DNA from: Alphaproteobacteria bacterium
Lineage (GTDB): Bacteria > Pseudomonadota > Alphaproteobacteria > GCA-2731375
DNA length: 34,527 bases
NCBI GenBank assembly: GCA_016869175.1
Contig: VGEV01000022.1
Span: forward strand, 1-34,527
Direction of reading: 5' to 3'
Part shown: piece after piece, positions 21,516-28,809 of the stretch
How positions within the stretch are numbered: position 1 is the first letter of the stretch
Layout of the letters: every line of letters starts with the position of its first letter
The notes under the pieces: model-generated
What the model was told of the DNA's origin: nothing
What the model saw: only the letters and a program-made list of their open reading frames with translations
Database searches by the model: none
Made by a program: the position numbers and the translations under genes

Positions 21516-22523
21516 ATGGCAGTCAGGGTCGCGATCAACGGCTTCGGCCGCATCGGGCGTCTGGTCCTGCGGGCGATCTACGAGAACGGCCGCAAGGATA
21601 TCGAGGTGGTCGGCATCAACGATCTGGGCCCGGTCAAGGCCAACGCCCACTTGCTGCGCCACGACAGCGTGCATGGCGCCTTCCCGGGCAGCGTCAAGGC
21701 CGCCGAGAACAGCATCGACCTGGGCCGCGGCCCGATCCACGTCACCGCCGAGCGCGATCCGGCCAAGCTGCCCTGGGCGGAATTGCAGGTCGATGTCGCC
21801 CTGGAGTGCACCGGCATCTTCACCAAGCGCGAACAGGCCGAGTTGCATCTCAAGGCCGGCGCCAAACGGGTGTTGATCTCGGCGCCCGCCACCGGCGCCG
21901 ACCTGACCGTGGTCTATGGCGTCAACCACGAGAAACTGGCGGCCAGCCATCGCATCGTCTCCAACGCCTCCTGCACCACCAATTGCCTGGCGCCGGTCGC
22001 CTTCGTGCTGAACCAGGCGGTCGGCATCGAGCATGGCTACATGACGACCATTCACTCCTATACTGCCGACCAGCCCGTGCTGGACACGCTGCACAGCGAC
22101 CTGCGCCGGGCGCGCGCCGCCAACCTGTCGATGGTGCCGACCTCGACCGGCGCGGCCAAGGCGGTCGGCCTGGTGCTGCCGGAGCTTTCGGGCAAGCTGG
22201 ACGGGACCGCCATCCGCGTGCCGACGCCCAACGTCTCGCTGGTCGATTTCAAGTTCCGCGCCAAGCAGGCGACCAGCAAGGAGAACGTCAACCAAGCGAT
22301 CCAGGCGGCGGCGCAGGGTCGGCTCAACGGCGTGCTGGCGGTGAACGAGGAAGAGCTCGTTTCCACCGACTTCAACCACAACCCGGCCAGCTCGGTGTTC
22401 GACCTGACGCAGACGCAGGTGATCGACGGCACTTTCGTGCGCGTGCTGTCCTGGTACGACAACGAATGGGGCTTCTCCAACCGCATGTCGGATACCGCGG
22501 TCGCCATGGGCAAGCTTGGCTGA
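21516..22523 (+). CDS. gap: Type I glyceraldehyde-3-phosphate dehydrogenase
   Basis: A 335-residue enzyme that oxidises glyceraldehyde-3-phosphate to 1,3-bisphosphoglycerate. The Rossmann motif is INGFGRIGR (7-15), the catalytic cysteine is Cys153 in [12 protein letters not shown], and the C-terminal [13 protein letters not shown] is intact. A GGAGG lies seven bases upstream of the ATG, 21 bases after the tkt stop. The [18 protein letters not shown] segment is of the alphaproteobacterial type; coenzyme preference (NAD or NADP) cannot be settled by eye. Confidence 0.97.
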
Positions 22524-22533
22524 GGCGGCCGCC

Positions 22534-23730
22534 GTGGCGCGCTTCCGCACGCTCGACGAGTTGGCGGTCAAGGGCCGGCGGGTGCTGGTGCGCTCGGACC
22601 TCAACGTGCCCATGCAGGACGGCAAGGTGAGCGACGCCACCCGCATCGCGCACACCGCCGTCACCTTGCGCGAACTGGCCGGCAAGGGCGCGCGCGTCGT
22701 GGTGCTGTCGCATTTCGGCCGCCCGGAAGGCAAGCCGGTCGCCAAGCTGAGCCAAGCGCCGCTGGCGGCGGCATTGGCGGCGGCGCTGGGCGGGCGGACG
22801 GTCGGTTTCGCTGCGGACTGCGTCGGGCCGGCGGCGGCGGCGGCGGTGGCGGGCCTGCCGGAAGGCGGCGTGCTGCTGCTGGAAAACGTGCGGTTCCATG
22901 CCGGCGAGGAAGCGAACGATCCGGTCTTTGCCGGGCGTCTGGCCGAACTGGGCGACATCTACGTCAATGACGCGTTTTCCTGCGCGCATCGCGCGCATGC
23001 CTCGACCGAGGGGTTGGCGCGGCTGCTGCCGGCCGCCGCCGGGCGCGGCATGGAGGCGGAATTGAAGGCGCTGGAAGGCGCACTCGGCTCGCCAGCGCGG
23101 CCGGTCATGGCGGTGGTCGGCGGCGCCAAGGTCTCCACCAAACTGTCGGTGCTGGGCAACCTGCTGGGCCGCGTCGAGCAGTTGGCGATCGGCGGCGGCA
23201 TGGCCAATACCTTCCTCCACGCCCGCGGCCTGGAAGTGGGCAAGAGCCTGTGCGAGCGTGACCTGGCCGACACCGCGCGGGAGATCGAGGCCAAGGCCAG
23301 GGCCGCCGGCACCGAACTGGTGCTGCCGGCCGATGTGGTGCTGGCCAAGGCGCTGAAACCGGGGGTCGATACCGCGACCGTGGTGGTGGAAAAAGTGCCG
23401 GCCGACATGCTGATCCTGGATATCGGCCCGCGCGCGGTGCTGGACCTGCAGGCCCGCCTGGAACGCTGCCGCACGGTGGTGTGGAACGGCCCCTTGGGGG
23501 CGTTCGAAACGCAACCGTTCGACCGGGGCACCAATGCCGTCGCGCGACATGCGGGCCAGCTCAGCCGGGCCGGCAAGCTGCTCTCGGTGGCGGGCGGCGG
23601 GGACACCGTGGCGGCGCTCAATCATGCCGGCGCCGCCCAGGATTTCTCTTATGTCTCGACCGCCGGCGGCGCCTTCCTCGAATGGCTCGAAGGCAAGACG
23701 CTGCCGGGCGTCAAGGTCTTGATGGGTTAG
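22534..23730 (+). CDS. pgk: Phosphoglycerate kinase
   Basis: A 398-residue two-domain kinase. The N-terminal substrate site shows [11 protein letters not shown] and SHFGRPEGK. The hinge and ATP side include [19 protein letters not shown] and [16 protein letters not shown] start at 22534 is chosen because the protein then begins [10 protein letters not shown], as in homologues, with TGAGG upstream. A TTG at 22516 overlapping the gap stop would add six residues. It is cotranscribed with gap. Confidence 0.96.
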
Positions 23731-23755
23731 CCAACGCAAGCAAGGAGACGGCAGC

Positions 23756-24688
23756 ATGCGCGTCAGCCGCAAAGTCCGCGAGATCCTGTCCTGGTACGAG
23801 AGCGACAATCCCGGCACCAAGGCGAACTTGGCGCGCATCCTGATGACCGGCCGGCTGGGCGGCACCGGCCGCATGGTGATCCTGCCCGTCGACCAGGGCT
23901 TCGAGCATGGGCCAGCACGCAGCTTCGCGCCCAACCCTCCCGCCTACGATCCGCGCTACCATTTCCAACTGGCGCTCGACGCCGGCCTCAACGCCTATGC
24001 CAGCGTGCTGGGCATGCTGGAAGCGGGCGCCGACGGTTTCGCCGGCCAGGTGCCGATGATCCTGAAGATCAACAGCGCCAACTCGCTGCTTCCCAAGGCG
24101 GCGCCCAAGGATCAGGCGATCACCGCCTCGGTCAAGGACGCACTCCGGCTCGGCTGCGCCGCCATCGGCTACACCATCTATCCCGGTTCGGAAGCCGCCA
24201 ACGACATGATCGAGGAGATCCGCGAACTGGCCGAGGAGGCCAAGTCGCACGGCCTCGCCGTCGTGGTCTGGTCCTATCCGCGCGGCGGCGATCTGTCCAA
24301 GGACGGCGAGACGGCGATGGATGTCAGCGCCTATGCCGCGCATCTGGCCTGCCTGATCGGCGCGCATATCATCAAGGTCAAGCTGCCGACCACCGCCATG
24401 GAGCAGGCGGAGGCCAAGAAGGCCTATGAGAGCGCCAAGGTCGACATCGGCACGATGGCGGCCAGGGTCAGGCACATCATGCAGGCGGCCTTCAACGGCC
24501 GGCGCCTGGTGGTGTTCTCGGGCGGCACCCTGAAGGGCGAGAACGCGCTGTTCGACGAGGTGAAAGCGATCCACGACGGCGGCGGCAACGGCTCCATCAT
24601 CGGCCGCAACACCTTCCAGCGGCCGCGCGAGGAGGCGCTGAAGCTGCTCGATCGGGTCATCCGCATCTACCAGGGCAAGGATGGCTGA
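23756..24688 (+). CDS. fba: Class I fructose-bisphosphate aldolase (DhnA/FbaB type)
   Basis: A 310-residue Schiff-base aldolase of the archaeal-type DhnA family, not the zinc-dependent class II enzyme. It shows [10 protein letters not shown] (44-53), GYTIYPGS (138-145), VVVWSYPRG (169-177) and IIKVKLP (205-211), which carries the candidate Schiff-base lysine, then VVFSGG. An AAGGAGA lies about nine bases upstream of the ATG. It completes the triose-phosphate part of the operon and overlaps thiE at its 3' end. Confidence 0.94.
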
Positions 24689-25343
24689 CCCGATGGCCGA
24701 CGGTGCCGCCTGCCGGCTTTACCTGATTACCCCGCCCGCCTTCGCGCTCGACGCCTTCGCTGCGGCACTGGAGCAGGCGCTCGAGGCAGGCGATGTGGCC
24801 TGCCTGCAACTGCGTCTGAAGGACGTGCCGGACGACAGCGTCCGGCGCGCGGCCGAGCGCTTGATGCCGATCGCGCAGCGCCGCGATGTCGCCTTTCTGA
24901 TCAACGACCGGCCCGACCAGGCGGCCGAGTTGGGCGCCGACGGCTGTCATGTCGGCCAGCAAGACGCGAGCTATGCCGAGGCCCGACGCCTGCTGGGGCC
25001 GGAGCGGATCGTCGGCGTCACCTGCCATGCCTCGCGCCACCTAGCGATGGCAGCGGGCGAAGCGGGTGCCGACTATGTCGCGTTCGGCGCCTTCTTCCCC
25101 ACCGACAGCAAGGCGGCCAAGAGTCGGGCCGACCCCGACCTCCTGCGCTGGTGGTCGGAATTGTTCGAGATCCCTTGCGTCGCCATCGGCGGCATCACCG
25201 TGGCCAACTGCCCGGCCCTGGTCGCGGCGGGGGCCGACTTCCTGTCGGTGATCGGCGGCGTGTGGAATTACCCGGCCGGACCGGCCGCCGCCGTCAGGGA
25301 CTTCAACCGCGCCATCGCCTTGGCCCTGCGCCAGCGCGCCTGA
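24681..25343 (+). CDS. thiE: Thiamine-phosphate synthase
   Basis: A 220-residue TIM-barrel enzyme that joins HMP-PP and thiazole phosphate. Typical motifs are QLRLKD (43-48), [22 protein letters not shown] (74-95, pyrophosphate site), [10 protein letters not shown] and VAIGGIT. The ATG at 24681 lies inside the fba stop region (8-base overlap); an ATG at 24693 is an alternative. Its presence in a transketolase operon makes sense because transketolase needs thiamine diphosphate. No clear terminator was found in the 36 bases before convergent ridA. Confidence 0.9.
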
Positions 25344-25379
25344 CGGCGACAAACGGCCCCCACCGCCCGCGGCGTTCCG

Positions 25380-25727
25380 TCATTTCGCCGCCACGCACAT
25401 GATCTCCACCTTGAAGGCCGGATTGGCCAGCCGGCTCTCGATGCATGCGCGGGCCGGCGGATTGGCCGGGTCGATCCACGGATCCCAGACCGAGTTCATG
25501 TCGGCGTAGTAGCGGATGTCGGCCACCCAGATCTGCGCCGACAGGATCTTCGACTTGTTGCTGCCGGCGGCGGCCAACAGCTTGTCGATCTTGTCGACGA
25601 TCTGCTTGGTCTGGCCCTTGACGTCGAGCGCGCCGTCGTCGGCCACGATGCCGGCGAGAAAAACGAGATTGCCGTACTCGGCCGCCTGGCTGAGGCGCTG
25701 GCCCGGTTGATGGCGCTTGATCGTCAT
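25380..25727 (-). CDS. RidA family protein (YjgF/YER057c/UK114)
   Basis: A 115-residue Rid protein. Family features are NLVFLAGIVADDGALDVKGQ at the N-terminal side and the C-terminal RACIESRLANPAFKVEIMCVA, where the Arg corresponds to the carboxylate-binding residue of imine deaminases. RidA removes reactive 2-aminoacrylate, but this copy is shorter than classical RidA (about 128), so the exact subgroup is not certain. The ATG at 25727 is preceded by AGGGGGTGAG. Confidence 0.9.
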   Translation of the reverse strand: MTIKRHQPGQRLSQAAEYGNLVFLAGIVADDGALDVKGQTKQIVDKIDKLLAAAGSNKSKILSAQIWVADIRYYADMNSVWDPWIDPANPPARACIESRLANPAFKVEIMCVAAK

Positions 25728-25803
25728 GCTCTCACCCCCTGTTGCCGCCGGCCGCGCCGGCGCGGGCGGAACTCTAGGGCAAAACCCGGGCGCGGCGAAC
25801 CCA

Positions 25804-25833
25804 TTGCCAGGAGGCAAGCGACGCTATAGCGTC
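25804..25833 (+). promoter_or_regulatory. Candidate promoter/palindrome upstream of the SuhB-like gene
   Basis: A perfect 14-base palindrome GACGCTATAGCGTC (25820-25833) contains a TATAGC that could be a -10 box 31 bases before the ATG at 25862. A TTGCCA lies 15 bases upstream of it. The symmetry could equally be an operator or chance overlap with an extended -10. Confidence 0.35.
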
Positions 25834-25861: not shown

Positions 25862-26683
25862 ATGGCACGACAATCGGCCTTGATCAATGTCATGACGGCG
25901 GCGGCGCTGAAGGCGGCGCGCGCGCTGGCGCGCGATTTCGGCGAAGTGGAGAACCTGCAGGTCACGCCGAAGGGTCCGGCGGAGTTCGTGGCGATCGCCC
26001 GCGCCAAGGCGGCCCGCACCCTGCAGGCCGAACTGCTCAAGGCACGGCCCGATTTCGGCCTGCTGCTGGCCGATGGCTCGGCCGCAGCCGGCGGCGACCG
26101 ACGCTGGCTGGTCCAGCCGCTCGACGGCGCCCAGAACTTCCTGCACGGCCTGCCGCATTTCTCGCTCGCCATCGCCGTCGAACGCGCGGGCGAACTGATC
26201 GCGGGCATCGTCTACCAGCCGATCACGCAAGAGCTGTTCTGGGCCGAGAGCGGCATCGGCGCCTTCGTCAACGACCGCCGCTTGCGCGTCTCGGGCCGCG
26301 GCGAGCTGGGCGAAGCGCTGGTGGCGGCGGATGTCGGCCCGCCGCCGGCGGCGGAGCAGCCGCGCGTGCTGGAGCAAACCCGCCGGTTTTGGTCGCACGT
26401 CGCCGGCCTGTGCCGGCTGGGCGCGCCGGCGCTCGATCTTGCCTATCTCGCCGCCGGCCGCCTCGATGGCGTGTGGCAAGAGGCGACCGCGCCGGCCGCG
26501 ACGGCGGCAGGCCGCGTGCTGGTCGCGGAGGCGGGCGGCTTCGTCAGCGACCTGGCCGGCGGCGCAGTGGCGCTCGGGAGCGGCGGCCTGCTGGCGGCGA
26601 ACCCGCGTTTGCACCCGCGCCTGCTCGCCCTGCTGGACCGGGCGGCGGCCGCCGGTCAACAGGCGCCGCTGGACGTGCTATGA
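25862..26683 (+). CDS. Inositol-monophosphatase (SuhB) family protein, metal site degenerate
   Basis: A 273-residue protein that aligns by eye with alphaproteobacterial SuhB along its whole length: SALINVM at the start, GEVENLQVTPKGPAEFV, LDGAQNFLHGLPHFS, the VYQPIT-ELFWAE-GIGAFVN segment, and ALDLAYLAAGRLDG. The metal-binding residues are mostly gone. The GEE loop reads LAD (69-71), DPLDGT reads QPLDGA (85-90; Asp to Gln, Thr to Ala) and the C-terminal PWD reads PAA (211-213). Only Asp88 is kept. Fold-determining parts look intact, so this is probably an expressed pseudoenzyme rather than a broken gene. It lies divergent from ridA and upstream of a polysaccharide locus. Function unknown; SuhB proteins also have RNA-polymerase roles. 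Confidence 0.85.
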   Translation: MARQSALINVMTAAALKAARALARDFGEVENLQVTPKGPAEFVAIARAKAARTLQAELLKARPDFGLLLADGSAAAGGDRRWLVQPLDGAQNFLHGLPHFSLAIAVERAGELIAGIVYQPITQELFWAESGIGAFVNDRRLRVSGRGELGEALVAADVGPPPAAEQPRVLEQTRRFWSHVAGLCRLGAPALDLAYLAAGRLDGVWQEATAPAATAAGRVLVAEAGGFVSDLAGGAVALGSGGLLAANPRLHPRLLALLDRAAAAGQQAPLDVL

Positions 26684-26710: not shown

Positions 26711-27700
26711 ATGACTTCGCCGGCACCGGGCGAACCGCCCGGCGCACCGCATCTGGTGGCGCCCGGGTTCGCCCCGCTTCCCCCGAAACCGAGCGCTTCG
26801 CCCGCGGACGAGTATGTCATCGACCTGCGGTTTCTCGGCCGGACGATCCTTCGGGCACGCTGGTTCGCGCTATTGGCTTTCGTGCTGGGCGCCGGCTACG
26901 GCTATTGGATGCTCGCCAAGTTCGATCCCAGCTATCAGGCCTTCATGGTGGTCTCGCCGTCGCGCAGCAGCGAGACGGCGCCATCGGATGCCTCGCCGGC
27001 GATCGGGGCGGCGGGGGCCCTGGGCCTGGCCTTCGGCGACCGCGGGGCGATCAATTTCGACCGGCTGACGCAGTTGATCGGCAGCTTGCAGCTGGCCGAA
27101 CGGCTGCAGCGCAAATACGGGCTGATGCAGACGATCTTCGCCGATGGCTACGACGGCGAAAGCAAGACCTGGCGTCGGCCGAGCGACGCCGCCTTCGAAC
27201 GCAAGGAGTATTTGCGCGCCCTGCTGCGCCAGACGCTGTGGCGCCCGCCGGATATCGACATGCTGGCCGACTATCTCAAGGCCGCGGTCAACGTGCGCAA
27301 CATGGACCCGCTGCCGTTCATGAAGCTGAGCTATGGCCATGCCGATCCGGTCATGGCGCGCTTCATCCTGGAGATCGTGTATGCCGAGGCGGATGCGCTG
27401 TTGCGCGAGCAGGACCTGCTGGAGAACAGCCGCCGCAAGGCCTACCTGCAGGACCAGCTCAACAAGGTGACGGTGCAAGATATCCGCGCCGTGCTGTTGC
27501 GCCTGCTGACCAGTGCCGAGCAGAGCGCCATGCTGCTGGAAAGCAATCTGCCCTATGCCGCGCGCATCGTCGAGCCGCCGCGCGCGCCGGTGCAGACCGA
27601 GGCGGCCAACCTGTTCCGTATCGTCGGCATTCCCGCGCTGACCGCGCCGGTCTTGGTTATCGTGCTCTTCCTGCTGGTCGCCCTGCTGCGGCGCGAGTAG
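26711..27700 (+). CDS. Wzz/GNVR-like chain-length determinant family protein
   Basis: A 329-residue inner-membrane protein. A proline-rich cytoplasmic N-terminus (1-45) is followed by TM1 (about 51-68), a periplasmic domain with predicted helices and coiled coil (QDQLNKVTVQDIRAVLLRLL), and TM2 at the C-terminus (about 305-326) ending LLRRE. The motif ARIVEPPRAPVQ just before TM2 is the proline-rich signature of polysaccharide co-polymerases. There is no fused kinase domain. Such proteins set polymer length in O-antigen or exopolysaccharide export. It starts the plus-strand polysaccharide series, six bases before the Wzy-like gene. The family call is by topology and motif only. Confidence 0.75.
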   Translation: MTSPAPGEPPGAPHLVAPGFAPLPPKPSASPADEYVIDLRFLGRTILRARWFALLAFVLGAGYGYWMLAKFDPSYQAFMVVSPSRSSETAPSDASPAIGAAGALGLAFGDRGAINFDRLTQLIGSLQLAERLQRKYGLMQTIFADGYDGESKTWRRPSDAAFERKEYLRALLRQTLWRPPDIDMLADYLKAAVNVRNMDPLPFMKLSYGHADPVMARFILEIVYAEADALLREQDLLENSRRKAYLQDQLNKVTVQDIRAVLLRLLTSAEQSAMLLESNLPYAARIVEPPRAPVQTEAANLFRIVGIPALTAPVLVIVLFLLVALLRRE

Positions 27701-27705
27701 CGGCG

Positions 27706-28809
27706 GTGGCCGACCCCACCAGGACCGGACGCGCCGCGCCGCTTACCTGGCCGGCTTTCCTTGCCTTCCTGTTCGCCTACCGGGTCGCGCTCAGCGTCGC
27801 GGCGGAAACCCTGGTGCGACAGTTCACTTCGCTGGGCGACTCGCACAAATACCAGGCCGGCGACCTGATGCAGGGCGCGTTCGCCGGCGGCTCGACCCAT
27901 GTGACCGTCTATCTCGGCTATCTGTTCAATCAGCTCTCCTTCGGCAACACTTACCTCGTCAACATCTGGTTCCAGGCGCTGGCCTTCGTCGGCATCGCCA
28001 GCTTCCTCACCGCGCTCGAAGGGCGCGACCGTCGGGCAGCGGCGCTGCTCTGCCTCATGCCGTCCTTCAACCTGTGGTCGTCGGTCGCTTCGAAGGAAGC
28101 GGTGCTGGTGTTCTGCGTCGGCATCGTCGCCGGCATGATCGCGCGGCTGGCCAGCGGCCGGTTTCGTCTGCGGCTCTGGCACATCCCGGTGATCTTGCTG
28201 ACCGCGCTCTACAAGCCGCATTTCATGCCGGCGATCGTCTTCCTGTTGGGCACCTACATGCTGGCGCCGCATCTGCGGCAGCGCACGGCGATGATCCTGC
28301 TGGCCTCGCTGGTCTCGCTGCTCGGCCTCTATCTGGCGGCCGACGCGGTCGACCAGATGGCGTTCGACATCATCCCGCATTTCCAAGGGGTCGGCTTCAG
28401 CACGCGGCCGGTCTTCTGGGAGCAGGAATACGACGTGTTCTACAAGGCGCCGCTCGGCATGTATCTCGCCTTTGTCGGTCCGACCTTGGAAGAAGCGGTC
28501 TCGGGTCACGCCATGCACACCTTCGCCTTCGCCGAGAGCATGCTGGTCCTGGCGATCGCGCTCTACCTGTTGTCGACGCGCCTCGCCCGGCTGCCGCTTT
28601 TCAACCTCTTCGTTTTTCTGTTCGGGCTGTTCTGGCTGCTGTTTCCGAACTACCCGGTCGGCGTGATGAATCCCGGCTCGGCGGTCCGCTATCGCACGGG
28701 CTACCTGCTGCTGTTCTTCCTGCTGTTCACGGTTATCCTGGCGCGCGAGCCCATCGTGCGCTGGGTGCGGCAGGGCCGGCAGCGGCACGCAGCCGCACAG
28801 CCGGCGTGA
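27706..28809 (+). CDS. Polytopic membrane protein, possible polysaccharide polymerase (Wzy-like)
   Basis: A 367-residue hydrophobic protein with roughly eight or nine predicted TM segments (about 15-33, 83-103, 110-118, 131-147, 157-185, 195-211, 250-262, 277-290, 298-316 and 331-347). I do not recognise a named family. Distinctive soluble motifs are GDSHKYQAGD (44-53), MPSFNLWSSVASKEAV (118-133) and NPGSAVRYRTGY (322-333). An arginine-rich RYR motif before the last helix is seen in some O-antigen and exopolysaccharide polymerases, and the position between a Wzz-like gene and glycosyltransferases supports that role. It starts with GTG at 27706, and the ribosome site is weak. Its stop overlaps the next start (GTGA). 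The function is inference. Confidence 0.7.
   Translation: MADPTRTGRAAPLTWPAFLAFLFAYRVALSVAAETLVRQFTSLGDSHKYQAGDLMQGAFAGGSTHVTVYLGYLFNQLSFGNTYLVNIWFQALAFVGIASFLTALEGRDRRAAALLCLMPSFNLWSSVASKEAVLVFCVGIVAGMIARLASGRFRLRLWHIPVILLTALYKPHFMPAIVFLLGTYMLAPHLRQRTAMILLASLVSLLGLYLAADAVDQMAFDIIPHFQGVGFSTRPVFWEQEYDVFYKAPLGMYLAFVGPTLEEAVSGHAMHTFAFAESMLVLAIALYLLSTRLARLPLFNLFVFLFGLFWLLFPNYPVGVMNPGSAVRYRTGYLLLFFLLFTVILAREPIVRWVRQGRQRHAAAQPA

Follow-up and report, generated by a model that had tools for sequence, protein, structure and literature searches.

In E. coli, SuhB is an active inositol monophosphatase (IMPase), reportedly without a need for this activity in its cellular role. As a Nus factor it binds NusA and the boxA/nut RNA of the rRNA leader, and it is required both for the loading of NusB/NusE and for countering Rho on the rRNA operons, the phosphatase activity being dispensable for the phenotypes tested (PMC6614801; PMC4807359; PMC2834668). 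The functions of the catalytic residues have been described for mycobacterial and human IMPases. With the numbering of the protein studied here, the acidic side chains that bind Mg2+ are those equivalent to E70, D85, D88, and D213, the equivalent of T90 touches the phosphate, and that of E206 sets the substrate specificity (PMC2080633). Mutations in the metal site lead to a dramatic drop in the activity of mycobacterial SuhB, and this protein dimerises upon Mg2+ (PMC2080633). Pseudoenzymes in general have kept the fold of their family and lost its catalytic residues, and a non-catalytic role is proposed for them, which is also the situation of the protein described below. A literature search, incomplete in its coverage, found no pseudoenzyme of the inositol monophosphatase family.

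The window, which is the whole stretch of 34,527 nucleotides analysed here, contains an open reading frame at 25862-26683 on the + strand that starts with ATG and encodes a protein of 273 amino acids. Residues 6-260 match PF00459 (Inositol_P) with 143 bits against a cut-off of 27 (E 1.7e-41), which places the protein in this family. The closest solved structure is Bartonella SuhB (3luz, E 5.6e-66), followed by SuhB from Pseudomonas and E. coli, and the top NCBIfam model is PRK10757, with 139.5 bits and thus under the equivalog cut-off of 332. The gene is found next to the ancestral neighbourhood gap-pgk-fba-thiE and a divergent ridA (21516-25817), with tkt farther upstream. In a genome of another genus of the same family (G004) the order tkt-gap-pgk-fba-thiE-ridA-suhB is identical, and among 80 named alphaproteobacterial loci thiE is found near suhB in 45, while gap or pgk is found there in about 30 each. 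Since SuhB is the best match among the IMPase subfamilies and the synteny is ancestral, the protein belongs to the SuhB orthologue group, being orthologous to the SuhB of Alphaproteobacteria by position as well as by sequence. The ridA-like gene beside it (PF01042; 25380-25817, - strand) encodes a protein that appears more diverged than its G004 counterpart, the mean identity to the other loci being 55.8% versus 63.8% (13 of 13 comparisons).

An AlphaFold2 model of the protein (30 sequences) has a mean pLDDT of 86 and a pTM of 0.87. When compared to SuhB chains from E. coli, Pseudomonas, Bartonella, and the rrn antitermination complex it gives VIA Z scores of 33.7-36. The Foldseek and VIA matches of the model are SuhB and IMPase chains, and the protein is predicted to form the alpha-beta-alpha-beta-alpha fold of the IMPases. 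A preliminary description of this DNA had stated that the landmarks of the SuhB fold are kept, and both the PF00459 match along the protein and the predicted structure agree with this. SuhB of Bartonella henselae (3luz/3lv0) resembles the query protein over its whole length, in the signature region discussed below, in belonging to the SuhB subfamily, and in fold (VIA Z 35.4, rmsd 1.3 Å). However, the Bartonella protein has intact AD, MEE, DPLDGT, and WD motifs where the query reads AR, LAD, QPLDGA, and AA. The fold is also that of the E. coli Nus factor (6ib7, 6ib8, and 6tqn; VIA Z about 34).

The alignment compared the query to 180 alphaproteobacterial orthologues, of which 179 were taken from collected loci and one was 3luz. 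D47R (26000-26002), E70A and E71D (26069-26074), D85Q and T90A (both within 26114-26131), and D213A (within 26495-26500), all encoded on the + strand like the other positions given below, are found in the query alone. The columns of D47, E70, E71, D85, and D213 show a conservation that rounds to 1.00, and that of T90 is 0.99; none of the 180 orthologues, and none of the 14 other genomes of the family, has the residues of the query at these positions. The changes at E70 and E71 turn the metal-binding loop M/G/T-E-E into L-A-D and remove the metal ligand h_70 (PMC2080633). In the motif that now reads QPLDGA, D85 and T90 are lost while D88 and G89 are kept, the roles of h_90, h_93, and h_95 being those given in PMC2080633. 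W212A and D213A together abolish the WD motif, the Asp of which is the metal ligand h_220 (PMC2080633). The query further displays D41E, G157D, E206Q (26477-26479) at the Glu responsible for substrate specificity (h_213; PMC2080633), and R184C (26411-26413) at an invariant Arg corresponding to E. coli R183. K37 (25970-25972), the equivalent of human K36, is retained. Of the four acidic residues that bind Mg2+, E70, D85, and D213 are thus lost and D88 alone remains, so that the ligand set of active IMPases, h_70/h_90/h_93/h_220, reads A70, Q85, D88, and A213. The preliminary description had reported an x-E-E loop changed to LAD, DPLDGT changed to QPLDGA, and PWD changed to PAA. These three losses read as claimed, but their extent was understated, as D47R, E206Q, R184C, G157D, and W212A were overlooked, and so was the retention of K37 and D88. 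Judged from the established chemistry of IMPases it is close to certain that the protein is catalytically dead; it should bind no catalytic Mg2+ and hydrolyse no phosphate monoesters.

The losses are focused on the site. Among columns that are at least 95% conserved in the orthologues, the query has lost 10 of the 14 active-site columns versus five of the 55 others (Fisher p 6.4e-6, a value that is indicative since the site set consists of known IMPase residues chosen after the losses had been seen). The non-catalytic alphaproteobacterial signature RDFGEVENLQV (residues 24-34; 25931-25963, + strand) is retained at all 11 positions; in the orthologues 10 of these columns are 97-100% conserved, while N31 is found in 66%. 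The signature is nearly invariant in alphaproteobacterial SuhB, and its E. coli counterpart is KNYETPDAVEA. It is a candidate for a lineage-specific interaction surface. The reading frame is clean, as had been claimed earlier, with no stop, a normal codon periodicity (GC1/2/3 of 0.81/0.53/0.88), and a codon usage like that of the neighbouring genes.

The gene has also changed faster than its counterpart in G004. The identity between the window and the G004 locus (L193) is 76% for gap, 67% for pgk, 74% for fba, 72% for thiE, 67.5% for ridA, and 51% for suhB, and the suhB of G004 is canonical with an intact site. In relative-rate counts using ten outgroups the suhB of the window has 50-56 unique changes against 17-24 in that of G004 (chi-square 9.7-20), which means that it has evolved about 2.5 times faster, while the same counts show no significant rate asymmetry for gap, pgk, fba, or thiE. 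The query forms the longest end branch in the tree, 1.35 compared to a median of 0.34, and 1.55 in a smaller, careful tree. Its placement is without support, the nearest sequence by path being L009 of its own family, and the topology test does not reject a clade that unites the query with L009 and L013, both members of this family (p-AU 0.47). Lateral transfer of suhB was considered and is not needed, given this result and the ancestral synteny. The query comes from one genome of one genus, and order coincides with family in the genome collection used.

The long branch and the about 50-56 unique changes, compared to about 20 in the sister gene, are what relaxed selection would give if catalysis had become dispensable and the whole gene were drifting toward loss, caught before its first frameshift or stop. 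Uniform drift is, however, expected to affect conserved columns alike, and the query has kept 50 of the 55 conserved columns outside the site versus four of the 14 within it. The normal codon periodicity and usage, the lack of a stop, and the wholly retained signature also speak against such a decay, which we regard as rather unlikely. It is likely that suhB is maintained under selection. The maintained pseudoenzyme proposed in the preliminary description is thus well supported by the disappearance of all acidic Mg2+ ligands but D88, the focused pattern of losses, the kept fold, the ancestral position of the gene, and the outcome of the search for a second SuhB.

This search, using both profiles and proteins, found no second suhB, and hence no intact copy, in the draft genome (285 contigs, scored 100% complete). 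The genome encodes three other PF00459 proteins, all with intact motifs and none more than 33% identical to the query: one above the CysQ cut-off, one HisN-like protein just below the cut-off, and one that is CysQ/HisN-like. The CysQ and HisN proteins of this genome share the PF00459 fold with the query and are 28-33% identical to it, but have intact catalytic motifs. Another type of IMPase-family protein, encoded in this genome at 34925-35662 of contig C5 (L002), has about equal CysQ and HisN scores, both below the cut-off. Ino1 is absent from all 15 genomes of the family. Inositol metabolism was therefore rejected as the cause of the site loss, since relatives with intact sites also lack Ino1 and its absence does not discriminate between them. 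Nor does inositol synthesis through Ino1 account for the intact sites of the relatives. All other orthologues keep the site, including those from genomes that lack Ino1, which indicates that catalysis or metal binding normally matters.

The protein probably has a scaffolding role, the likeliest being that of SuhB as a Nus factor during the transcription of rRNA. This reading of a maintained pseudo-phosphatase builds on the function of E. coli SuhB without IMPase activity, combined with the presence of NusA and a boxA-like leader and the absence of Ino1. By analogy to E. coli, the suhB product would be kept for the non-catalytic work of SuhB as a Nus factor. The preliminary description had likewise suggested a role of the RNA-polymerase/NusA type, which is plausible. 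The NusA of the genome has both acidic repeats and is, unlike suhB, about 76% identical to those of family members. A boxA-like sequence, CGCTCTTTGA, lies about 165 nt upstream of the 16S gene, on the same strand as this gene and after a hairpin-like stretch; the match is weak, as it has one mismatch and a match is also obtained in 56 of 200 shuffles. The residues contacting NusA-AR2 in E. coli, K251 and L254, fall in columns that are variable in alphaproteobacteria, and the query has P252 and L255. What counts against the scaffold is this variability of the contact columns, the faster evolution of suhB compared to its orthologues, as expected of a weakly constrained gene, and the intact catalytic site in all other orthologues. 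A further step, which we put forward tentatively, is that this SuhB is independent of metal and has no function other than that of a scaffold in transcription, its site being re-packed and its assembly having become insensitive to Mg2+. A metal-free site might possibly owe its stability to D47R and to the disappearance of acidic residues, and the Mg2+-driven dimerisation of mycobacterial SuhB suggests that a metal-free form might assemble differently.

Two open reading frames at 26711-28809 (+ strand) start 27 bp past suhB and may be co-transcribed with it. Judged by eye, one product resembles a chain-length protein of polysaccharide synthesis and the other a membrane polymerase; neither matches a Pfam family, and tblastn gave no hit for them among the 80 named alphaproteobacterial loci. 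The suhB product could have been recruited to a new role, for instance as a phosphate- or sugar-binding regulator or as a partner of these polysaccharide-like genes. Its position directly before genes that are without a match in the named loci, the site-focused change, and the acceleration fit such a shift of function, and K37, D88, and the G187 loop might still hold an anion. The upstream neighbourhood is nevertheless ancestral, the query protein contains no new conserved insert or domain, and as both downstream frames are without a Pfam match their polysaccharide role is itself unproven; we consider a recruitment of this kind unlikely.

It is very improbable that the protein is still an enzyme with an altered use of metal or another mechanism: K37, D88, and the fold remain, but the equivalents of E70, D85, T90, E206, and D213 are all gone, and mutations in the metal site are known to cut the activity of mycobacterial SuhB dramatically (PMC2080633). 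It had been suggested earlier that canonical residues in the homologues would point to a sequencing error. The relatives are indeed canonical, but the eight key codons differ from the canonical ones by at least 14 base substitutions, and so many changes in a clean, codon-normal frame make an error unreasonable as an explanation. A sequencing or assembly artefact is thus hardly credible even in a draft genome of 285 contigs from a genus represented by one genome, as the substitutions are scattered over eight codons with the frame unchanged, the codon usage is normal, and the neighbourhood is conserved.

With SuhB being a transcription factor, the persistence of its perfect phosphatase site in so many bacteria is a puzzle. 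Point mutants of E. coli suggest that catalysis is dispensable, yet all 180 orthologues surveyed here keep the site. A lineage where the site has been lost naturally, in what is apparently its only suhB, offers a test case that separates the residues retained for the non-catalytic job, such as RDFGEVENLQV, from those retained for the chemistry. The erased site in an otherwise kept protein hints that the main job of SuhB in this organism is something other than catalysis. A metal-independent scaffold SuhB, if true, would be a natural and complete separation of the two functions of SuhB.
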